The notes below the pieces were generated by a model that was not told where the DNA came from, searched no databases, and saw only the letters and a program-made list of their open reading frames with translations. From Ornithinimicrobium pekingense DSM 21552 (GTDB lineage Bacteria > Actinomycetota > Actinomycetes > Actinomycetales > Dermatophilaceae): a DNA stretch of 64,000 bases. Position numbers and translations under genes: made by a program. The stretch covers positions 62,001-126,000 of the forward strand of contig NZ_ATWJ01000013.1 in the NCBI RefSeq assembly GCF_000421185.1, read 5' to 3'. Each line of letters starts with the position of its first letter. Position 1 is the first letter of the stretch. This document shows positions 19,454 to 27,951 of this stretch, in pieces.

Positions 19454-20149
19454 ATGGGCGAGGACCAGACCCGCCGGGCCTACGACACGGTCGCCGACGA
19501 CTACGCGCGCCTGCTCCCGGACACCCGGGCCGAGACCCGGCTGGACCTGGCGATGGTCGAGGCCCTCGTCGACCACGTCCGGGACGCCGGAGAGGTGCTG
19601 GACGCCGGGTGCGGCGCCGGGCGGCTGACGCGCTACCTCGCCGACCGCGGCTGCACCGTGCGCGGCGTCGACCTGTCCCCAGGCATGGTCGCGGCCGGAC
19701 GTCGCGCCCACCCCGACCTCGATCTCCAGGTCGCCTCTCTGCTCGACCTGCCGTTCGCCGACGGCCGCTTCGCCGGCGCCCTTCTCTGGTACTCCACCAT
19801 CCACACCCCCGGACCCGGCCTGCCACCGCTGCTGGCCGAGGTCGTGCGCGTCGTCCGGCCCGGCGGCGTGCTGCTCGTCGGCTTCCAGGCCGGGCACGGC
19901 ACGGTCGACCTGGCCGCGTCCTACGGCCGGCACGGGCACGACGTCGAGCTGACCCGCTGGCGGCGCACCCCCGACGAGATGGCCGCCCTGCTCACCGCGG
20001 CCGGCACCACCGAGGTCGCCCGGCTCGTGCGTGCCCCTGACCCCCAGCAGCCGTGGGAGGACGACGACCAGGCGTTCCTCCTCGTCCGCCGCACCGACGA
20101 CCCGACCCCTCCCACCCCCGGACCCGCGACCGAAGGAGACCCCGCGTGA
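19454..20149 (+). CDS. Class I SAM-dependent methyltransferase
   Basis: A 231-residue Methyltransf_11/25-type protein. Motif I is [16 protein letters not shown], the acidic end of strand 2 is GVDLSPGMV, motif II is [12 protein letters not shown] and motif III is [13 protein letters not shown]. The methyl acceptor cannot be inferred. It overlaps the following SHMT-like gene by four bases (GTGA) and is preceded by the SDR gene, so methylation and PLP chemistry may serve one pathway. Confidence 0.88.
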
Positions 20150-21486
20150 CCGCATACCTCGCCCCCCGCCCCTGGGTGCCGGAGCCGAGCGAGACCCTCG
20201 TGCAGGAGGTCGCGGCGCGCACCGCCGGCCTGACGCCGCAGGACGTGCTCGGCGAGCTCGACCGCCTCGTCGCCGACAACCGCCGCATCCACGACGCCGA
20301 CTGCGTCAACCTCAACCCCGCGACCAACGTGATGAACCCGCGCGCCGAGGCGATGCTCTCCACCGGCCTCGGCTCACGCCCGTCGCTGGGCTACCCGGGC
20401 GCGAAGTACGAGATGGGCCTGGAGGCGATCGAGCGCATCGAGGTCGTCGCGGCCGAGCTCGTCGCCGAGGTGTTCCGGGCTCGGTATGCCGAGGTCCGCG
20501 TGCCCTCGGGCGCGGTCGCCAACCTCTACGCGTTCCTGGCCCTGACCGAGCCGGGCGACACCATCGTCGCGCCGCCGCCGTCGATCGGCGGGCACGTGAC
20601 CCACCACGCGGGCGGCTCGGCGGGGATGTACCGCCTGCGCACCGTCCCCGCCCCGGTCGCGCCCGGCGGCTACACCGTCGACATCGACGAGCTTCGCCGG
20701 GTGGCCCACGAGGTGCGGCCACGGATGATCACGGTCGGTGCGAGCCTCAACCTCGAGCCGCACCCGGTGCCCGCGATCCGCGAGATCGCGGACGAGGTCG
20801 GTGCCACGGTGCTCTTCGACGCCGCGCACCTGTGCGGGCTCATCGCCGGTCGCGCCTGGCCGCACCCGCTCGAGCAGGGCGCGCACCTGATGACGTTCAG
20901 CACCTACAAGAGCCTCGGCGGCCCCGCCGGCGGCGTCGTGGTCACCGACGACGCGGAGATCGCGCAGCGCCTCGACGCGATCGCCTACCCCGGGCTGACC
21001 GCCAACTTCGACGCCGGCAAGACCGCCGCGCTCGCCGTCACCATGGTCGACTGGCTGGTCGCGGGGCAGGGGTATGCCGCCGCGATGGTCGCCACCGCCG
21101 CGCGCCTCGCCGAGGAGCTGAGGGCCGCGGGCGTGCCCCTCTTCGAGCTCGCCGACGGCGCACCGACGCGATCGCACCAGCTGGCCGTGCGCGCCGCCGC
21201 CTGGGGCGGCGGCCAGGCCGCGGCCCGCCGGCTGCGCCGCGCCAACATCCTCAGCTGCGGCATCGGGCTGCCCGAGGAGCCGGTCGACGGCGACGTCAAC
21301 GGGCTGCGGCTCGGGACGCCGGAGGTGGTGCGGCTGGGGATGGGCCCGGAGGACATGCCGGAGCTGGCCGGGCTCGTCGCGCGCGGGCTCGACCCCGACA
21401 GCGACCCGGAGACGGTGGCCCCGGAGGTGACCGCCTGGCGCCGACGGTTCGGCGGCGTGCACTTCACCGCGCAGCAGCCGGGCTGA
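20146..21486 (+). CDS. Serine hydroxymethyltransferase-like PLP enzyme
   Basis: A 446-residue fold-type I PLP protein in the SHMT family but divergent. SLGYPGAKYEMGLEAIERIE replaces the usual Y-A-E-G-Y-P-G-x-R-Y-Y-G-G block, followed by VPSGAVANLYAFLAL, LFDAAHLCGLIAG and the PLP Lys in TFSTYKSLGGPAGG (near residue 255). Many SHMT folate-site residues look altered, so it may be an aldolase or another glycine/serine-type enzyme rather than GlyA. AAGGAG seven bases before GTG 20146 supports the start. A housekeeping glyA would be expected elsewhere. Confidence 0.8.
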   Translation: MTAYLAPRPWVPEPSETLVQEVAARTAGLTPQDVLGELDRLVADNRRIHDADCVNLNPATNVMNPRAEAMLSTGLGSRPSLGYPGAKYEMGLEAIERIEVVAAELVAEVFRARYAEVRVPSGAVANLYAFLALTEPGDTIVAPPPSIGGHVTHHAGGSAGMYRLRTVPAPVAPGGYTVDIDELRRVAHEVRPRMITVGASLNLEPHPVPAIREIADEVGATVLFDAAHLCGLIAGRAWPHPLEQGAHLMTFSTYKSLGGPAGGVVVTDDAEIAQRLDAIAYPGLTANFDAGKTAALAVTMVDWLVAGQGYAAAMVATAARLAEELRAAGVPLFELADGAPTRSHQLAVRAAAWGGGQAAARRLRRANILSCGIGLPEEPVDGDVNGLRLGTPEVVRLGMGPEDMPELAGLVARGLDPDSDPETVAPEVTAWRRRFGGVHFTAQQPG

Positions 21487-21527: not shown

Positions 21528-23132
21528 ATGGCCCACCCGCCCAGGGGTCGACCGGCTGTCGCCGGGACGGTCGGGGCGCTCGCCCTCGTGGCGCTCGCCG
21601 CGGTCGGCGCCTGGGCGGAGGTGACCGCCGGGACCGCCCCGCGCATGGTCGCCCTCGACGTCTGCGTCGGCCTGGCGCTGGGCGCGGCCGCGCTGCTCTC
21701 CCCCGTGCCGGTGCGCCAGCGCGTCCTCGTGGGCGGCGCGGGTGCCGCGTGGCTGCTCGCCTCGTCGCTGCCCGTCCCGACGCTGCACCAGGCGGTGCTG
21801 GTGCTGGCGGTCGGCTGGTTCCCCGACGGCACCCCGCAGCGCCGACTGAGGGCCGTGCTGGTGGCCGGTGGTGCGCTGGCGGTCGCCGGGTGGGCCGTGC
21901 TCGTCACCGTGACGCCGGCAGGGCTCACGCTGCCGGCGCCGGTGATGCGCGGCGGCGGCCAGGTGCTCGCGGGCACGGCGCTGGTGACCGCGGGGCTGTG
22001 CGCGGTGCACCGGCGGGCCCGGCCGGTCGCGAGGAGCGTCTTCCCGCTCGCCACCGGACTCGTGCTCGGCGGCTTCCTCCTGCTTGTCGGGGTCTCCGCC
22101 CTCGCCGCGCTCCGGCCCCCGCACCCCGCGACGGTCCTCGTCGGCTGGAAGGTGGCCCTGCTGCTGGCCGCCGCCGGCCACGTCGTGGCCGCCCACGCAC
22201 TGACCCGGGCGCCCGGCCGGCTGGTGCGGGACGCCATCACCCAGCACCGCGACCGGCCGGCGACCGCACGGGCCACGGCTCTGCAGGCGGTGCTGGCCGA
22301 CGCCCTGCGCGACCCGGGCCTGCGCGTCGTGGTCGCCGACGCCCGGACCGGGCGCCTCGAGGCGCCCCACGGGTCGCACGTGGTCAGCGTGGACGGCCGG
22401 CCGGTGGTCGCGGTCACCACGACCTCGCCGCTGCTGCGCGACCCGGCGGTGGCCGGGCCGCTGGACGAGGCGCTGGGGCAGGCGGCGCGGTCGTTCGAGC
22501 TCGCCGCCTCCCGGGAGGACCACGTCGCGGCGCTGCGGCGGGCGCGCAGCCGGCTCGTGGCCACCGACCAGCGGGAGCGCCGGCGCCTGACCCAGCGGCT
22601 GCAGTCCGACGTGCTGCCCGACCTCGCCGGGGCCACCGCGCGGCTGACCGGGCTCTCCGCGGAGCCGCAGGGCGACGCCCTGGCCATCGCCCTGGCCGAG
22701 CTGCGGCACGCCCAGGAGGACATCGCCGCGCTGCTGCACGGCTCCCTGCCCTACGAGGTGGGCGGCGGACGGCTGGTGGAGGCGGTCAGCCAGCTGGTCG
22801 GCAGCCTGCCCGTGCCGGGGTCGGTCGAGGTGGCGGGCACCGTCGACGGCCCGGTCGAGGTGGAGGGCGCCGCCTACTTCCTCGTGGCCGAGGCGCTGGC
22901 CAACGCGGTCAAGCACGCGCAGGCCGACCGGGTGGTGGTCCGGCTCACCGGGGGCCGCGCCAGCCTGGGAGTCCGCGTCACCGACGACGGACGAGGGGGC
23001 GCCGACCCCTCCGGCTCCGGCCTGCTCGGCATGCGCGAGCGGGTGGCGGCGCTGGGCGGGACCTGGCGGGTCGACAGCGTCCCCGGCGGGGGCACGGTCG
23101 TCGAGGCGGTGCTGCCGCTGGGCCCGGGCTGA
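21528..23132 (+). CDS. Histidine-kinase-like membrane protein lacking the phospho-accepting His (kinase A)
   Basis: A 534-residue protein with about seven N-terminal membrane helices (residues 10-225), a linker, a dimerisation helix and a complete HATPase_c domain: N-box VAEALANAVKHAQADRV, G1 VTDDGRGGAD, G2 GSGLLGMRERVAALGG. In the dimerisation helix the block that should read E-R-R-R-I-x-x-D-L-H-D-G is RERRRLTQRLQSDVLPD, with Gln at the His position. It may phosphorylate another protein's His or be a pseudokinase. No response regulator is adjacent; the next kinase-like protein (24102-25757) has the opposite defect. Confidence 0.85.
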   Translation: MAHPPRGRPAVAGTVGALALVALAAVGAWAEVTAGTAPRMVALDVCVGLALGAAALLSPVPVRQRVLVGGAGAAWLLASSLPVPTLHQAVLVLAVGWFPDGTPQRRLRAVLVAGGALAVAGWAVLVTVTPAGLTLPAPVMRGGGQVLAGTALVTAGLCAVHRRARPVARSVFPLATGLVLGGFLLLVGVSALAALRPPHPATVLVGWKVALLLAAAGHVVAAHALTRAPGRLVRDAITQHRDRPATARATALQAVLADALRDPGLRVVVADARTGRLEAPHGSHVVSVDGRPVVAVTTTSPLLRDPAVAGPLDEALGQAARSFELAASREDHVAALRRARSRLVATDQRERRRLTQRLQSDVLPDLAGATARLTGLSAEPQGDALAIALAELRHAQEDIAALLHGSLPYEVGGGRLVEAVSQLVGSLPVPGSVEVAGTVDGPVEVEGAAYFLVAEALANAVKHAQADRVVVRLTGGRASLGVRVTDDGRGGADPSGSGLLGMRERVAALGGTWRVDSVPGGGTVVEAVLPLGPG

Positions 23133-23166
23133 CCGGAGCTCGAGGCCCGGGCTGACCGGCCACGGA

Positions 23167-23201
23167 AGAGGCCGTCGACGCTGGTCGCGTCGACGGCCTC
23201 T
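23167..23201. terminator. Perfect 15-bp stem hairpin after kinase A
   Basis: AGAGGCCGTCGACGC (23167-23181) pairs perfectly with 23187-23201 around a TGGTC loop. It lies between convergent genes (kinase A and the 64-residue gene). A strong bidirectional stem without U-run. Confidence 0.8.
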
Positions 23202-23237
23202 CGGGGTCCTCGTCCCTGCCCTGCGGGCCCCGCCCCG

Positions 23238-23432
23238 TCAGTGCGTCGGCGCGTGGGCCAGGTGGACCCGGACGAGCTGTTCGTGCACCCACGACCACCA
23301 CTGGTGGGCGGCCGCCGGGGCGGGCCCGGCCTCCTGCGCCGGGGTGCGGCGCTGACGCAGCTGCTGCTGCAGGTCCCTCTCCCGCTCGTGCGCCATGCTG
23401 CGCGCGGCGAGCATGTCCAGGTGCTGGTTCAC
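23238..23432 (-). CDS. Small hypothetical protein, 64 residues
   Basis: Not a recognised family. GTG start with a perfect AGGAGG five bases upstream supports translation. The protein is Gln/His/Arg-rich in the first half (ERERDLQQQLRQRR, possibly a short helix), then Ala-rich, ending with HQWWSWVHEQLVRVHLAHAP, an amphipathic aromatic segment. No signal peptide. It lies downstream of the lipoprotein on the same strand (36-base gap) and may be co-transcribed with it. Confidence 0.6.
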   Translation of the reverse strand: MNQHLDMLAARSMAHERERDLQQQLRQRRTPAQEAGPAPAAAHQWWSWVHEQLVRVHLAHAPTH

Positions 23433-23468
23433 GATGTCCTCCTCGCGGGTATGCCGTGGCCGGCCGGG

Positions 23469-23921
23469 TCACCGGCCGTCGCCCGGCCAGCCGATGTCGG
23501 CACCGTCGACGCGGGTGCCCGTGCCGCCCGTGCCGGAGCTGTCCTCGTCGGCCATCTCGGCGCGGGGGATGCCGGTGTGCGGCGCCGTGACCTTGCCCTC
23601 GTCGGCCATCTCGGCACGCGGGATGCCGGTGTGGGCAGCCCCACCCTTGCGGGGGGTCAGCCCGGCCGGGGGCACCTCCATGCCGGCGGTCTCCGGGAAG
23701 GCCTGCAGGCGTGCCTTGCGGACGTCTTCGGAGAGGTCGGCCGCGGTGAGGGTGGAGGGACGCGCGGCCAGGCGGGCCTTGCGCGCGTCCTCGGCGACGT
23801 CGGCCTGCGAGACGGTGCGGTCGGTGTCGTCGACGGTCTGGGTCCCGCAGGCGGCGAGCGCCAGGGTCCCTGCCAGCAGTGCTGCCACGGAGGTGCCTGC
23901 GTGGCGTCGGGTCATGCTCAT
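23469..23921 (-). CDS. Putative lipoprotein with two duplicated motifs
   Basis: A 150-residue protein with a lipoprotein signal: MSMTRR, hydrophobic stretch, lipobox LAAC at about residue 23-26. The mature part is built of two duplications: ADVAEDARKARLAA / ADLSEDVRKARLQA, and then HTGIPRAEMADE twice with a seven-residue spacer. No known domain. GGGGTAGGA precedes ATG 23921. It sits between two half-complete kinases on the opposite strand, so it could be an extracytoplasmic accessory of that signalling locus (inference). Confidence 0.7.
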   Translation of the reverse strand: MSMTRRHAGTSVAALLAGTLALAACGTQTVDDTDRTVSQADVAEDARKARLAARPSTLTAADLSEDVRKARLQAFPETAGMEVPPAGLTPRKGGAAHTGIPRAEMADEGKVTAPHTGIPRAEMADEDSSGTGGTGTRVDGADIGWPGDGR

Positions 23922-24101
23922 GGGTCCTACCCCTTCGATGTCGGTGGTGCGTCGTCCTGACCCCTCCACGGTCCTGCCGGGGGGCCGGTGCCCACCAGCG
24001 CGTCACCACCGGACCTGGTGCGGGAAACACGGTGCCCGGCGGCCCCGAACCCGGCGGGAATCACGGGTGCGGCGGGTCGCTCCCGGCGGGACACTGAAGA
24101 C

Positions 24102-25757
24102 ATGCACCGCCAGGGCGCGCGTCTGGCCGCCGGGACCGTTCTGCTGCTGCTGGTCACCCTGGCCGCGGCGGACGACCTGCTGGGCATCGGCAGCCTCACC
24201 TCGGGCCCGGCCCTGGCCACCGTCCTCGCCTGGCTCGTGTGCGCCGCCGCCGTCGCGGTCGCGGTGCGGTGCGCCGGCAGCGGCGGGTCGACCGCGGCCT
24301 GGATGCTGCTGCTCCTCGCGGCGGCCGCCTGGGCTCCGGCCCTGAGCGGGCGCAGCTGGGTGCCGGCCGTCCTCGACGGTCCGCTCCTCGCGGCCGCCGC
24401 CCTCGTCCCGCTCCTGCTGGCGCTGCACGGCACGGCGTGGGCCGGGCGACCGGGGCCGCGCGCGCTCGTCGTGGTCGCCGGCCTCCCGGCGCTCGCGGCC
24501 GCCGTCACGGTCCTGGCCTACTCCCCCCTCGGCGACCCCCTGTGCACCACCGGCTGCGGCTCGGCCGGCGCGCCGTGGGCCGACCCCGCGCACGCCCGGG
24601 AGGTGACCGTCCTGGTCGCCCTCCTCACCGGCGCCTCGGCCGCGGCGGGCCTGGTCCTGGTCTGGCGACGGCGACGCCATACCCCCGGCTGGGTGGTGCG
24701 CGGCGTCGTGGCCGGCCTGCTGGTCGTGCCCGTCCTGGGGTGGCTGCGCGCGACCGCGTGGGGGCTGACCGCGGGGCCGCCCGACCGGCCGGTGTGGTCG
24801 CTGCTGCCGGTGGCGCTGGCGACCGCCGGGACCGGGGCCTACCTGTGGACCCTCGCCTCCGTGCGCCGCCGGCTGCGCGCGGTCGTCACCCGGCTCGGCG
24901 ACGTCACCGCGGACCCGTCGCTCGGGCAGGTGCACTTCGCCCTGCCCGAGGAGGGGCGGTGGATCGACCTGCACGGGTCGGCGGCGCAGGAGGGGCCCGA
25001 CCCCGGGCAGGCGCTGGTCGTCACCGACGACGCGGGCCGCCCCTGGGCCCGGCTGAGCATGCCCGGCGGGCAGCCGGTGGACGACCTGGCGTGCGACGCG
25101 TCGGTGTGGCTGCTGCTCGAGAACGCCCGGCAGACCGCGATGCTGCGCGCCGACCAGCGGGCCGTCGAGTCCTCGCGCCGGCAGGTGGTCGCCCGTTCTG
25201 ACGGGGAGCGCCGCCGCATCGAGCACGACCTGCACGACGGCGTGCAGCAGCGCCTGGTCTCGGCCAAGCTGCACCTGGCCATCGCCAGGTCCGCGGCGCC
25301 GGCGGAGGTCTCGGGCGACCTGCTGGAGGTCGACGACCGGCTGCAGCACGCGCTCACCTCCCTGCGCGACGTCTCCCACGGGCTCTTCCCGCGGTCGCTG
25401 GAGGCCGAGGGCCTGACCCCCGCCCTCCAGGAGCTGGCCGGCACGCGGCCGATGACCCTGCACCTGGCCGGTCCCGTCGACGACGTGCCGCTGCCCGTGC
25501 GCACCACCGTGTATGCCGTCGCCCACCGTCTCGTCGGCGAGGCCGTGGGCGAGGGCCATCCCGTGCCCGAGCTGACCGTCCGGCGCTCCGGGGGGACCGT
25601 CACGGTCGACGCCCGCCTGGCCGGCCTCGCCCGGACCGACGTCGCCGAGGCGCTGCTGGAGGTCGAGGACCGGGTGGGGGCGCTCGGCGGCCGGGTGCGG
25701 GCCGCCGCGAGCCACGGCGTCCTGCACGTGCGGGCGGAGCTGCCGTGCGGGTCGTGA
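24102..25757 (+). CDS. Histidine-kinase-like membrane protein with degenerate ATPase domain (kinase B)
   Basis: A 551-residue protein with about eight membrane helices (residues 5-265), then a HisKA_3 dimerisation helix with intact H-box DGERRRIEHDLHDGVQQRL. The expected HATPase_c boxes are lost: the N-box region reads HRLVGEAVGEGHPVP with no Asn, G1 reads DARLAGLART and G2 EALLEVEDRVGALGG. It probably cannot bind ATP but can accept a phosphoryl group. It overlaps its response regulator by 13 bases. The nearby kinase A has an intact ATPase and no His, so the two may work as one split kinase. Confidence 0.85.
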   Translation: MHRQGARLAAGTVLLLLVTLAAADDLLGIGSLTSGPALATVLAWLVCAAAVAVAVRCAGSGGSTAAWMLLLLAAAAWAPALSGRSWVPAVLDGPLLAAAALVPLLLALHGTAWAGRPGPRALVVVAGLPALAAAVTVLAYSPLGDPLCTTGCGSAGAPWADPAHAREVTVLVALLTGASAAAGLVLVWRRRRHTPGWVVRGVVAGLLVVPVLGWLRATAWGLTAGPPDRPVWSLLPVALATAGTGAYLWTLASVRRRLRAVVTRLGDVTADPSLGQVHFALPEEGRWIDLHGSAAQEGPDPGQALVVTDDAGRPWARLSMPGGQPVDDLACDASVWLLLENARQTAMLRADQRAVESSRRQVVARSDGERRRIEHDLHDGVQQRLVSAKLHLAIARSAAPAEVSGDLLEVDDRLQHALTSLRDVSHGLFPRSLEAEGLTPALQELAGTRPMTLHLAGPVDDVPLPVRTTVYAVAHRLVGEAVGEGHPVPELTVRRSGGTVTVDARLAGLARTDVAEALLEVEDRVGALGGRVRAAASHGVLHVRAELPCGS

Positions 25758-26392
25758 TCGCCGACGACGTCATGCTGGTCCGCTCCGGGATCGCCCGGCT
25801 GCTGGGCGACCACGGGGTCGACGTCGTCGGTGAGGCCGGTGACGCCGCGGAGCTTCTGCGGCTGGTCGCCGTCGAGCGGCCCGACGTGGCGGTCGTGGAC
25901 ATCCGCATGCCGCCGACCCACACCGACGAGGGCCTGGTCGCCGCCCAGCGGATCCGCCGCGACTACCCCGGGACGGCCGTCGTCGTGCTCAGCCAGTACG
26001 TCGAGCCGGTCTACGCCCAGCGGCTGCTGGCCGACCACCCCGGAGGTGTCGGTTACCTGCTCAAGGAGCGGGTCTCCGACGTGGCGGTGCTGGTCGACGC
26101 GCTGCACCGGGTGCACGAGCAGGAGAGCGTCATCGACCCCACGATCGTCGCCCAGGTCCTGCGCGGCCACCCCGCGGGCTCGCCCGTCGGCCGGCTCACC
26201 GAGCGCGAGCGCAGCGTCCTGGCGCTCATGGCCGAGGGCCGCTCCAACGGCGGGATCGCGCGGGAGCTGGTCCTCAGCGAGCGCACGGTCGAGGCGGCGA
26301 GCGCCAGCATCTTCCGCAAGCTGGGGCTCAGTGCCGCGCCCGACCTCAACCGCCGGGTGCTGGCCGTGCTCACGCTGCTGCGCGGCGGCTAG
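25745..26392 (+). CDS. LuxR-type response regulator
   Basis: A 215-residue regulator starting with GTG inside the end of kinase B. Receiver: IADD at residues 5-8, phospho-acceptor Asp in VAVVDIRMPP (about 53), Lys in GYLLKERV. LuxR-type HTH: LTERERSVLALMAEGRSNGGIARELVLSERTVEAASASIFRKLGL; the usual E-x-H in the recognition helix is changed to EAA. The stop shares its bases with the stop of the convergent solute-binding gene (CTAG, 26389-26392). Likely output of the kinase A/B pair. Confidence 0.9.
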   Translation: MRVVIADDVMLVRSGIARLLGDHGVDVVGEAGDAAELLRLVAVERPDVAVVDIRMPPTHTDEGLVAAQRIRRDYPGTAVVVLSQYVEPVYAQRLLADHPGGVGYLLKERVSDVAVLVDALHRVHEQESVIDPTIVAQVLRGHPAGSPVGRLTERERSVLALMAEGRSNGGIARELVLSERTVEAASASIFRKLGLSAAPDLNRRVLAVLTLLRGG

Positions 26393-27951
26393 CCGATCCG
26401 CCGCCAGGGCTTGACGACCAGGTAGAACGACGGGTCCTCCGAGACGAGGTCCGACAGTGTCAGCACGTCACCGTCGAGGGACCAGCGCACCCGGTGCGTG
26501 CTGGGCGGCAGGCAGCTCGTCGGACCCTGGTCCAGGTCGCGGTCGCAGTCGGTCAGCCGCGCCTCCTCTGCGGTGTCGTGGGTCAGGTATGCCGTGTCAC
26601 CGGTCCCGGTGACCCAGCCCACCTCCCGGGGGTTGGCGTCGTGGTCGGCCGGCAGCTCCCCGGCGTAGTCGCAGTCGGTGCCGGTGGAGGAGCGCAGCGG
26701 CGTGCAGTCGAGCTGGAAGGTCCCGTCGGCCAGCCTGAGGGTCCACACCCCGGTGGCGCCCTCGGCCGTCCGCGCCAGCCCGGAGGCCTCGACGTCGTCC
26801 GGGCCGATCTCGACGCGGTAGACCCCGTCCGGCAGCGCCGCCGGGGTGTCCGGCACGTCCAGCTCACCGGGCCCGACCCGGGTGACGAGGGGGACGTCGC
26901 GGCACTGCCGGGCGTCGAGGGCGTCGACCGGGTGCCCTGACCCGATGGCCCGCACCTCGGCGAGGACCGGGTCGTCCTGCAGGTCGTGGAGCACGGGGGC
27001 CACCGCCCGGTGCAGCTCGGCGAGCTCGGTCTCGGTGGCCAGGTGCACCTGGGCGCCCGACTCGCACAGCTCGCGGACCAGCGTGTCCTCGTCGTGCTCG
27101 CCCTCGACGCTGGCCCGCACGGCCCGGTCCGCCGCCTGCCGGACCCACCCCCGCTGCTCCTCGGTGAGGGCGTCCCAGGTCTGCTCCGAGAGGCTGAGCA
27201 CGAAGACCTTGGGCCACAGCACGACGTTGCCGGTGATGTGCCCGGCCTCCGTCGTCATCCCGTTGTGGTGGTACTGCGCCACGTCGAGCTCGACGCCGTC
27301 GAGGCGCCCGGCCCGGACCTCCTCGGGCCACTCGTAGGTCACGTGCACCGGCTCGCCGCCGAGCGCGCGCACCGTCGCGTCCTGCACCGGGGAGGCGTAG
27401 GAACGGAACCGCACGTCTCCCCAGTCCCCGACGCCGACCAGCGGGCGGTCGGCCGCCATCGGCCGGCGCAGCGGCCCCACCGCCAGCCCGAGCCCGACGA
27501 CGCCGGAGCCCTCGAGACGCTCGAGCAGGGTGCCGGCGGTGGCCGAGGTGACCAGCTCACCGACCGCGGCGTAGGAGGTGAGCGTCAGCGGGGCCTCCAC
27601 GACCTCCAGGCCCTCGATCCCCGCCGCGGCGAAGGCGCGCGTGGACGGCCACCCGCCGTCGACCCGCCCCTGGGCGATCGCCTCGACCAGGCGGGTCTCC
27701 GTGTCGGGCTCGGTCCCGCCGAAGGTCTCCAGGTCCACCTCGACCCGCAGGGCGCCCTCGGACACCTCGCCGAGGGCGTCGACGAACGCGGGCGGCCCGT
27801 ACGACATACCGTTGTTGTCCACCGCGTCGACCGAGGCGAGCGTGATCACCCGCACCGCGCTGCCCGCCTTGTCGGGCCCCGCCTCGGCCCGGCACCCGGC
27901 CAGGGCGAGCATCAGCGCGCAGGGGACGGCTACGACCGCGGCGAGTTTCAC
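26389..27951 (-). CDS. TRAP-type (DctP-like) solute-binding lipoprotein with an extra C-terminal domain
   Basis: A 520-residue extracytoplasmic lipoprotein: GTG start after AGGAGG, signal MKLAAVVAVPCALMLALAGC. Residues about 35-345 match DctP-type binding proteins (GRVDGGWPSTRAFAAAGIEGLEV, GDVRFRSYASPVQDATVRALGGEPV, DGVELDVAQYHHNGMTTEAGHITG). DctP normally ends near residue 330; here about 170 further residues (from about 365) form a beta-rich domain starting PDGVYRVEIGPDDVEA with a possible disulphide-forming Cys set. No DctQ/DctM membrane genes are in the window, so it may be a sensor or binding protein rather than a transport subunit. Confidence 0.8.
   Translation of the reverse strand: MKLAAVVAVPCALMLALAGCRAEAGPDKAGSAVRVITLASVDAVDNNGMSYGPPAFVDALGEVSEGALRVEVDLETFGGTEPDTETRLVEAIAQGRVDGGWPSTRAFAAAGIEGLEVVEAPLTLTSYAAVGELVTSATAGTLLERLEGSGVVGLGLAVGPLRRPMAADRPLVGVGDWGDVRFRSYASPVQDATVRALGGEPVHVTYEWPEEVRAGRLDGVELDVAQYHHNGMTTEAGHITGNVVLWPKVFVLSLSEQTWDALTEEQRGWVRQAADRAVRASVEGEHDEDTLVRELCESGAQVHLATETELAELHRAVAPVLHDLQDDPVLAEVRAIGSGHPVDALDARQCRDVPLVTRVGPGELDVPDTPAALPDGVYRVEIGPDDVEASGLARTAEGATGVWTLRLADGTFQLDCTPLRSSTGTDCDYAGELPADHDANPREVGWVTGTGDTAYLTHDTAEEARLTDCDRDLDQGPTSCLPPSTHRVRWSLDGDVLTLSDLVSEDPSFYLVVKPWRRIG

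Follow-up and report, generated by a model that had tools for sequence, protein, structure and literature searches.

A 64,000-nucleotide stretch of Ornithinimicrobium pekingense DSM 21552 (contig NZ_ATWJ01000013.1, positions 62,001 to 126,000; hereafter the window) encodes two neighboring histidine-kinase-like membrane proteins, kinases A and B, each of which lacks what the other retains, together with a NarL-type response regulator and a DctP-family solute-binding lipoprotein. We posit from sequence comparison, at a probability of roughly 0.75, that these four proteins form one sensing unit in which A and B are the parts of a split HisKA_3 kinase and A phosphorylates B. An earlier note on this DNA, made from the letters alone, had proposed a split kinase from the complementary defects of A and B; the motifs, reading frames and coordinates are as it described, Pfam agrees, and such a pair, complementary in the same way, recurs at 20 loci spread over 16 genomes (the window included), which supports its reading. 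The lipoprotein, a conserved fourth gene of the module, is absent from that note.

In HisKA_3 kinases, the H-box His serves phosphotransfer and a Gln one turn on is used to dephosphorylate the regulator, a reaction that does not require the His (PMC5231405). Alignment with relatives places Q359 of kinase A where the phospho-His stands, and A keeps neither this His nor the phosphatase Gln. Its N, G1 and G2 boxes are present (N459, D487-G488-x-G490 and G496-x-G498; six of six scored residues), and the Pfam profile check that the earlier note had called for returns HATPase_c (1.8e-10) and no HisKA_3 match at E ≤ 1. Kinase B shows the opposite condition: H378, D379 and Q383 of the H-box are kept, Glu replaces Asn in the N-box, G1 and G2 are degenerate, one of six scored ATP-site residues is left, and Pfam matches HisKA_3 (7.9e-11) and not HATPase_c at E ≤ 1. 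Neither protein by itself is a complete HisKA_3 histidine kinase, A for want of the His and B for want of the three ATP-binding boxes. AlphaFold models place about eight helices ahead of the cytosolic part of A and about seven ahead of that of B, in line with the seven or eight membrane helices counted earlier. The expectation that B would not show a normal ATP pocket is borne out in part: the model gives its ATPase domain a normal Bergerat fold, which the inclusion of intact kinases in the alignments may favor, but the domain lacks the catalytic residues and has an ATP lid of 3 residues versus 10 in A, so that B is predicted to keep the fold around a dead site. Among solved structures, DesK best matches both the A (5.7e-21) and the B (5e-6) profiles, and VraS and DesK top the fold-search lists, the searches having covered the kinase domains and barely the membrane parts.

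Table 1. Features of the proposed split-kinase module and its neighbors in the window
Feature	Position	Strand	Description
Serine hydroxymethyltransferase-like gene	20122-21486	+	upstream of kinase A
Kinase A	21528..23132	+	membrane sensor; dimerization and histidine phosphotransfer (DHp) domain without phospho-His (Q359); HATPase_c intact
Gln359 codon	22602..22604	+	phospho-His position of kinase A
Small lipoprotein-like open reading frame (ORF)	23469-23969	-	between kinases A and B
Kinase B	24102..25757	+	membrane sensor; HisKA_3 H-box intact; ATP site degenerate
His378 codon	25233..25235	+	likely phospho-acceptor of the A/B pair
NarL-type response regulator	25745..26392	+	receiver and LuxR/GerE domains; 13-base overlap with kinase B
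DctP-family (PF03480) solute-binding lipoprotein	26389..27951 (coding 26392-27951 plus stop)	-	C-terminal extension; convergent with regulator

The complementary arrangement, with the ATP domain encoded by one gene and the phospho-His by another, is found in the window and in 19 further loci in an analysis that rests on stop-to-stop frames and a custom residue classifier. In all 20 loci, A lacks the His and keeps five or six of the six scored ATP-site residues, B keeps the His and zero to three of the six, and a NarL-type regulator (cut by a contig end in locus L282) and a DctP lipoprotein accompany them. In place of the His, A has Gln, Ala, Arg, Gly, Asp or Thr. The regulator gene mostly follows B, as in the window, where the overlap of 13 bases that the earlier note had seen is present, and follows A in L081 and L282; order and orientation fall into six arrangements (that of L174 read from true gene bounds), and the genes nonetheless stay together. 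The first relatives came from A and B searches of 117 genomes, which gave syntenic pairs in genomes G050, G047 and, twice, G069; with the window, these pairs have Q, A, R, A and R at the A site with ATP motifs kept, and B shows the reverse. Pfam scans of these five pairs place HATPase_c above the cut-off in A only and HisKA_3 in B only, apart from one B whose HisKA_3 match scores 23.0 bits (cut-off 24) and another in which the C-terminal part matches HATPase_c below threshold (13 bits). A lipoprotein profile run against 186 genomes of the family returned 14 matches of at least 195 bits, the next scoring 111, and all 14 loci hold an A-type kinase, a B-type kinase and a regulator, nine of them not having been used in the profile. 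In a sample of 340 genomes of the class, its four best matches are the window, G1020, G1002 and G1071; the kinase pair is present in G1020 and G1071, and that of G1002, a contig of 7.8 kb, carries nothing of the module but a regulator in addition to the lipoprotein. The fifth match (141 bits) is a binding protein of ordinary type, 344 residues long, with no kinase genes in its vicinity. Order-level and phylum-level searches with the profiles of A and B (396 genomes in each case), together with a contig scan, added G226, G650, G588 and Acrocarpospora corrugata (L218). G650 and G588 have two loci each and belong to classes other than that of the window, the order of G588 being represented by 3 genomes only and the class of G650 by 27. 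Genome searches scored the best first-look candidates, mostly 3 to 12 per genome.

The contig scan with the A profile returned mostly ordinary kinases and was used as a control. Among the 91 kinases in the loci of its best 80 of 525 matches, 86 are intact, one is classed as other, two are A-type and two are B-type, and the last four make up two complete complementary modules. In a published survey, 56 of 16,025 HisKA_3 domains (0.3%) are without the His (PMC12632262), a figure that would miss A-type domains no longer matching HisKA_3. Given the rarity of His loss in that survey and the pairing of every half-defective control kinase, the complementary defects of A and B exceed what chance would give. 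Partners were also counted in 145 fetched loci chosen by an A, B or lipoprotein profile match, so the counts describe these families only (L185 is omitted as the same place as L171, and four of 186 kinase ORFs lack a diagnostic column). A strict B-type protein lies within 6 kb of 24 of the 27 A-type proteins; the partner of a further one (L162) is classed as other with three of six ATP-site residues, and the last two (L166, L168) lie on contigs of 9.1 and 5.7 kb. Conversely, 24 of 33 B-type proteins have an A within 6 kb, and the nine others comprise six orphan paralogues of one genus, the B of L163 beside a His-bearing A, and those of L167 and L170 on contigs of 10.8 and 12.3 kb, with no A in the part read. 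No module-type lipoprotein lies near 117 of the 119 intact kinases in these loci, and the other two are the A proteins of G588.

A PF03480 lipoprotein adjoins the kinases in all 22 module loci, that is, the 20 pair loci and the two of G588 (L163 and L164), by Pfam in five (E 1.3e-14 to 2.1e-22 in the first five loci) and by profile in the rest. Its profile matches solved DctP proteins of tripartite ATP-independent periplasmic (TRAP) transporters. The TRAP permease DctM was not found in 11 of the 14 module genomes examined (of 17) and lies on other contigs in the remaining three (the genome of the window, G047 and G541), so that the lipoprotein is probably a dedicated receptor; a role as part of a local TRAP transporter is not borne out in the 14 genomes. 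The receptor assignment draws on gene linkage and on the precedents of CuaD and XylFII: in CuaD-CuaS-CuaR and XylFII-LytS, a kinase and a regulator relay the signal of a dedicated solute-binding lipoprotein (PMC10384115), the arrangement proposed here, whereas those systems have a single intact kinase, binding proteins of ABC-type families and other regulators. As in three-component systems with a solute-binding protein, the lipoprotein gene is linked to kinase and regulator genes; no linked DctM permease was found in the 14 genomes examined. An alternative in which the lipoprotein works in transport elsewhere and adjoins the kinases by chance is in keeping with its TRAP DctP family and with DctM in three of the 14 genomes, but we consider it improbable given the absence of DctM from the other 11, its location on other contigs in those three, and the presence of the lipoprotein in every pair locus as well as both His-bearing loci.

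Several further features of the module genes and their surroundings were observed. The lipoprotein extends about 180 residues past the DctP domain (after about residue 340), an extension that is shared with relatives and has no Pfam match. Module-type lipoprotein genes occur in tandem beside the regulator or B in three loci, five in a row in L286 (G837) and at least three in L287 (G837) and L170 (G808). A single-domain receiver gene, missing from the window, lies immediately upstream of A in seven of the 22 module loci and the fragment L166 (L062, L063, L163, L166, L171, L172, L173 and L282; the two scanned match PF00072) and could encode a phosphate sink or second output. The small ORF between A and B in the window carries two copies each of TGIPRAEMADE and a DxxxDxRKARL motif and matches no Pfam family above the cut-off. 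The serine hydroxymethyltransferase-like enzyme (PF00464, 2.8e-41) is encoded upstream of A and preceded by a methyltransferase gene, neither of which seems to belong to the module.

The complementary losses and their recurrence, the linkage of the genes and purifying selection can be read from the sequences themselves; we infer a phosphotransfer path, an A:B heterodimer and a receptor role for the lipoprotein as follows. The lipoprotein would bind a solute outside the membrane and signal to the membrane parts of A, B or both, which would act as complementary halves of one HisKA_3 kinase of the DesK/NarX type. Because B is without a working ATP site and A without a phospho-His, the ATP domain of A would phosphorylate His378 of B, from which the phosphate would pass to the Asp of the regulator encoded next to B; the H-box Gln of B could dephosphorylate the same regulator.

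Substitution patterns point to purifying selection on the module parts. The ratio of nonsynonymous to synonymous substitution rates (dN/dS), estimated by the NG86 method from 15 pairs among six close loci of five genomes and rough for GC-rich genes, has medians of 0.27 for the DHp and 0.36 for the catalytic and ATP-binding (CA) domain of A, 0.20 and 0.47 for those of B, 0.48 for the lipoprotein and 0.14 for the regulator, and stays below 0.5 in every part, also in the ATPase domain of B with its dead site. The pairwise divergences of A track those of B with r = 0.916, a closer correlation than in any of the other five part pairs (0.728 to 0.865), and none of 2000 permutations is as high for any part pair; this comparison covers 19 of the 22 module loci, L163 and L282 (regulator incomplete at a contig end in both) as well as L164 being excluded.

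Our quick phylogenetic tree of 109 kinase domains places the lipoprotein-linked A proteins in one group (support of 99 in the Shimodaira-Hasegawa-like approximate likelihood-ratio test) and the B proteins in another (95). Outside both groups fall the kinases of a second pair type, found in five genomes of about 8 Mb (L082-L086) of one genus (g81), in which B, A and regulator genes stand in a row, A has Asp or Glu at the His position, and no lipoprotein was found in the stretch read. This placement disfavors a single origin for all pairs and makes the g81 pair a likely rather than proven separate origin of the split, in a tree with weak support for 41 of its 105 inner branches and with long branches that meet, from which L282, L284 and the B of L164 (too short) are left out. 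On a tree of A proteins (23 rows), the His site needs 14 residue changes and no replacement is favored; the two proteins that bear the His, those of G588, sit in two places. Presence and absence of the His need at least two changes, and unordered parsimony has the His regained; we prefer repeated loss, on the assumption that an otherwise normal H-box is unlikely to regain a phospho-His. A His-bearing A beside an ATP-dead B in G588 suggests that the loss in B came first, and if the His was never regained, loss of the ATP site in B preceded loss of the His in A on more than one occasion.

The refuting conditions named in the earlier note mostly come out in its favor. We are cautious in that several observations weigh against the split-kinase proposal. 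The absence of the His from A, on which the earlier note relied, holds in 20 of the 22 module loci but fails in the two of G588, where B is ATP-dead and A need not depend on it; both loci carry the DctP lipoprotein, these A proteins are possible intermediates, and in L164 the frames of B and the lipoprotein are broken, which may reflect decay or poor assembly. The co-occurrence of A and B that was to be expected of a split kinase likewise holds for most family members in the counts above, but not for six B-type genes of g81 (L087-L092), one cut by a contig end, which have neither an A nor a paired regulator nearby; five of the six genomes have a complete pair elsewhere. The ATPase-like domain of B is the least constrained kinase part, though not free of constraint, and shared descent alone can yield the correlated divergence of A and B.

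The degeneration of single motifs would also be expected if A and B were unrelated decaying kinases that are neighbors by chance, yet this is scarcely credible for a pair that recurs in 20 loci within and beyond the class of the window with dN/dS below 0.5, and on recurrence and dN/dS we ruled out chance neighbors or pseudogenes. A realistic if unlikely alternative is that each protein forms homodimers and those of A phosphorylate those of B in a larger complex at the membrane: each still has a complete DHp domain and membrane part, and CheA4 phosphorylates CheA3 across proteins (PMC3591291), but A and B belong to a DHp-dimer class in which the His served by a CA domain lies in the same dimer. 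In a further alternative, A is an ATP-binding pseudokinase that tunes B allosterically, with B phosphorylated by another kinase of the cell or acting purely as a phosphatase of the regulator; pseudo-histidine kinases exist, DivL among them (PMC4211667, PMC9430884). The Gln kept in B and the orphan B genes of one genus suit this model, which we nevertheless regard as distinctly unlikely, since the phospho-His of B is kept in 20 of 20 loci, needlessly for a pure phosphatase (PMC5231405), as are the ATP motifs of A.

A split HisKA_3 kinase is best compared with systems in which two proteins share the work of one kinase. CheA3 and CheA4 of Rhodobacter sphaeroides, which the earlier note had cited, are both needed, one providing the ATP domain and one the phospho-His, and the protein with the His is also a phosphatase (PMC3591291). 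As CheA-type kinases, they have a separate P1 domain and belong to a soluble chemotaxis cluster, unlike the membrane-bound A and B with their DHp and CA-like domains. Hik36 and Hik43 of Synechocystis likewise divide a kinase over two genes and interact by two-hybrid assay, but include a CheA homologue, are encoded far apart, and have no solute-binding protein described in the text available to us (PMC7656254). DesK, NarX and VraS share the DHp-CA class of A and B and differ in having His and ATP site in one chain. Rv0600c and Rv0601c (HK1 and HK2) of Mycobacterium tuberculosis, soluble parts of the HisKA/OmpR class that divide ATP site and His between them, are likened to A and B by description only. 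Like A and B, they are encoded by two adjacent kinase genes and share one regulator, TcrA (PMC9274095). A 2013 paper notes that 3.66% of HisKA proteins lack a HATPase domain, which makes them candidates for a split (PMC3591291). Experimental descriptions of split kinases in these sources concern the CheA type (PMC3591291, PMC7656254); no report of a HisKA_3 split kinase with a solute-binding receptor was found in open-access full texts, most subscription papers lying outside that search.

Taken further, at about even odds, the module is a four-part sensor present in and beyond the class of the window whose obligate A:B complex arose by a one-way path, loss of the ATP site of B preceding repeated losses of the His of A with varied replacements, and the split arose again without the lipoprotein in the genus with genomes of about 8 Mb. 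If these proposals are correct, a split in the DesK/NarX class with membrane and dimerization parts in both halves would make phosphorylation in cis or in trans directly testable, as well as the balance of kinase and phosphatase activities and the evolution of obligate heterodimers, and in the DctP lipoprotein a transporter part would have become a receptor, with a ligand that could be searched for.

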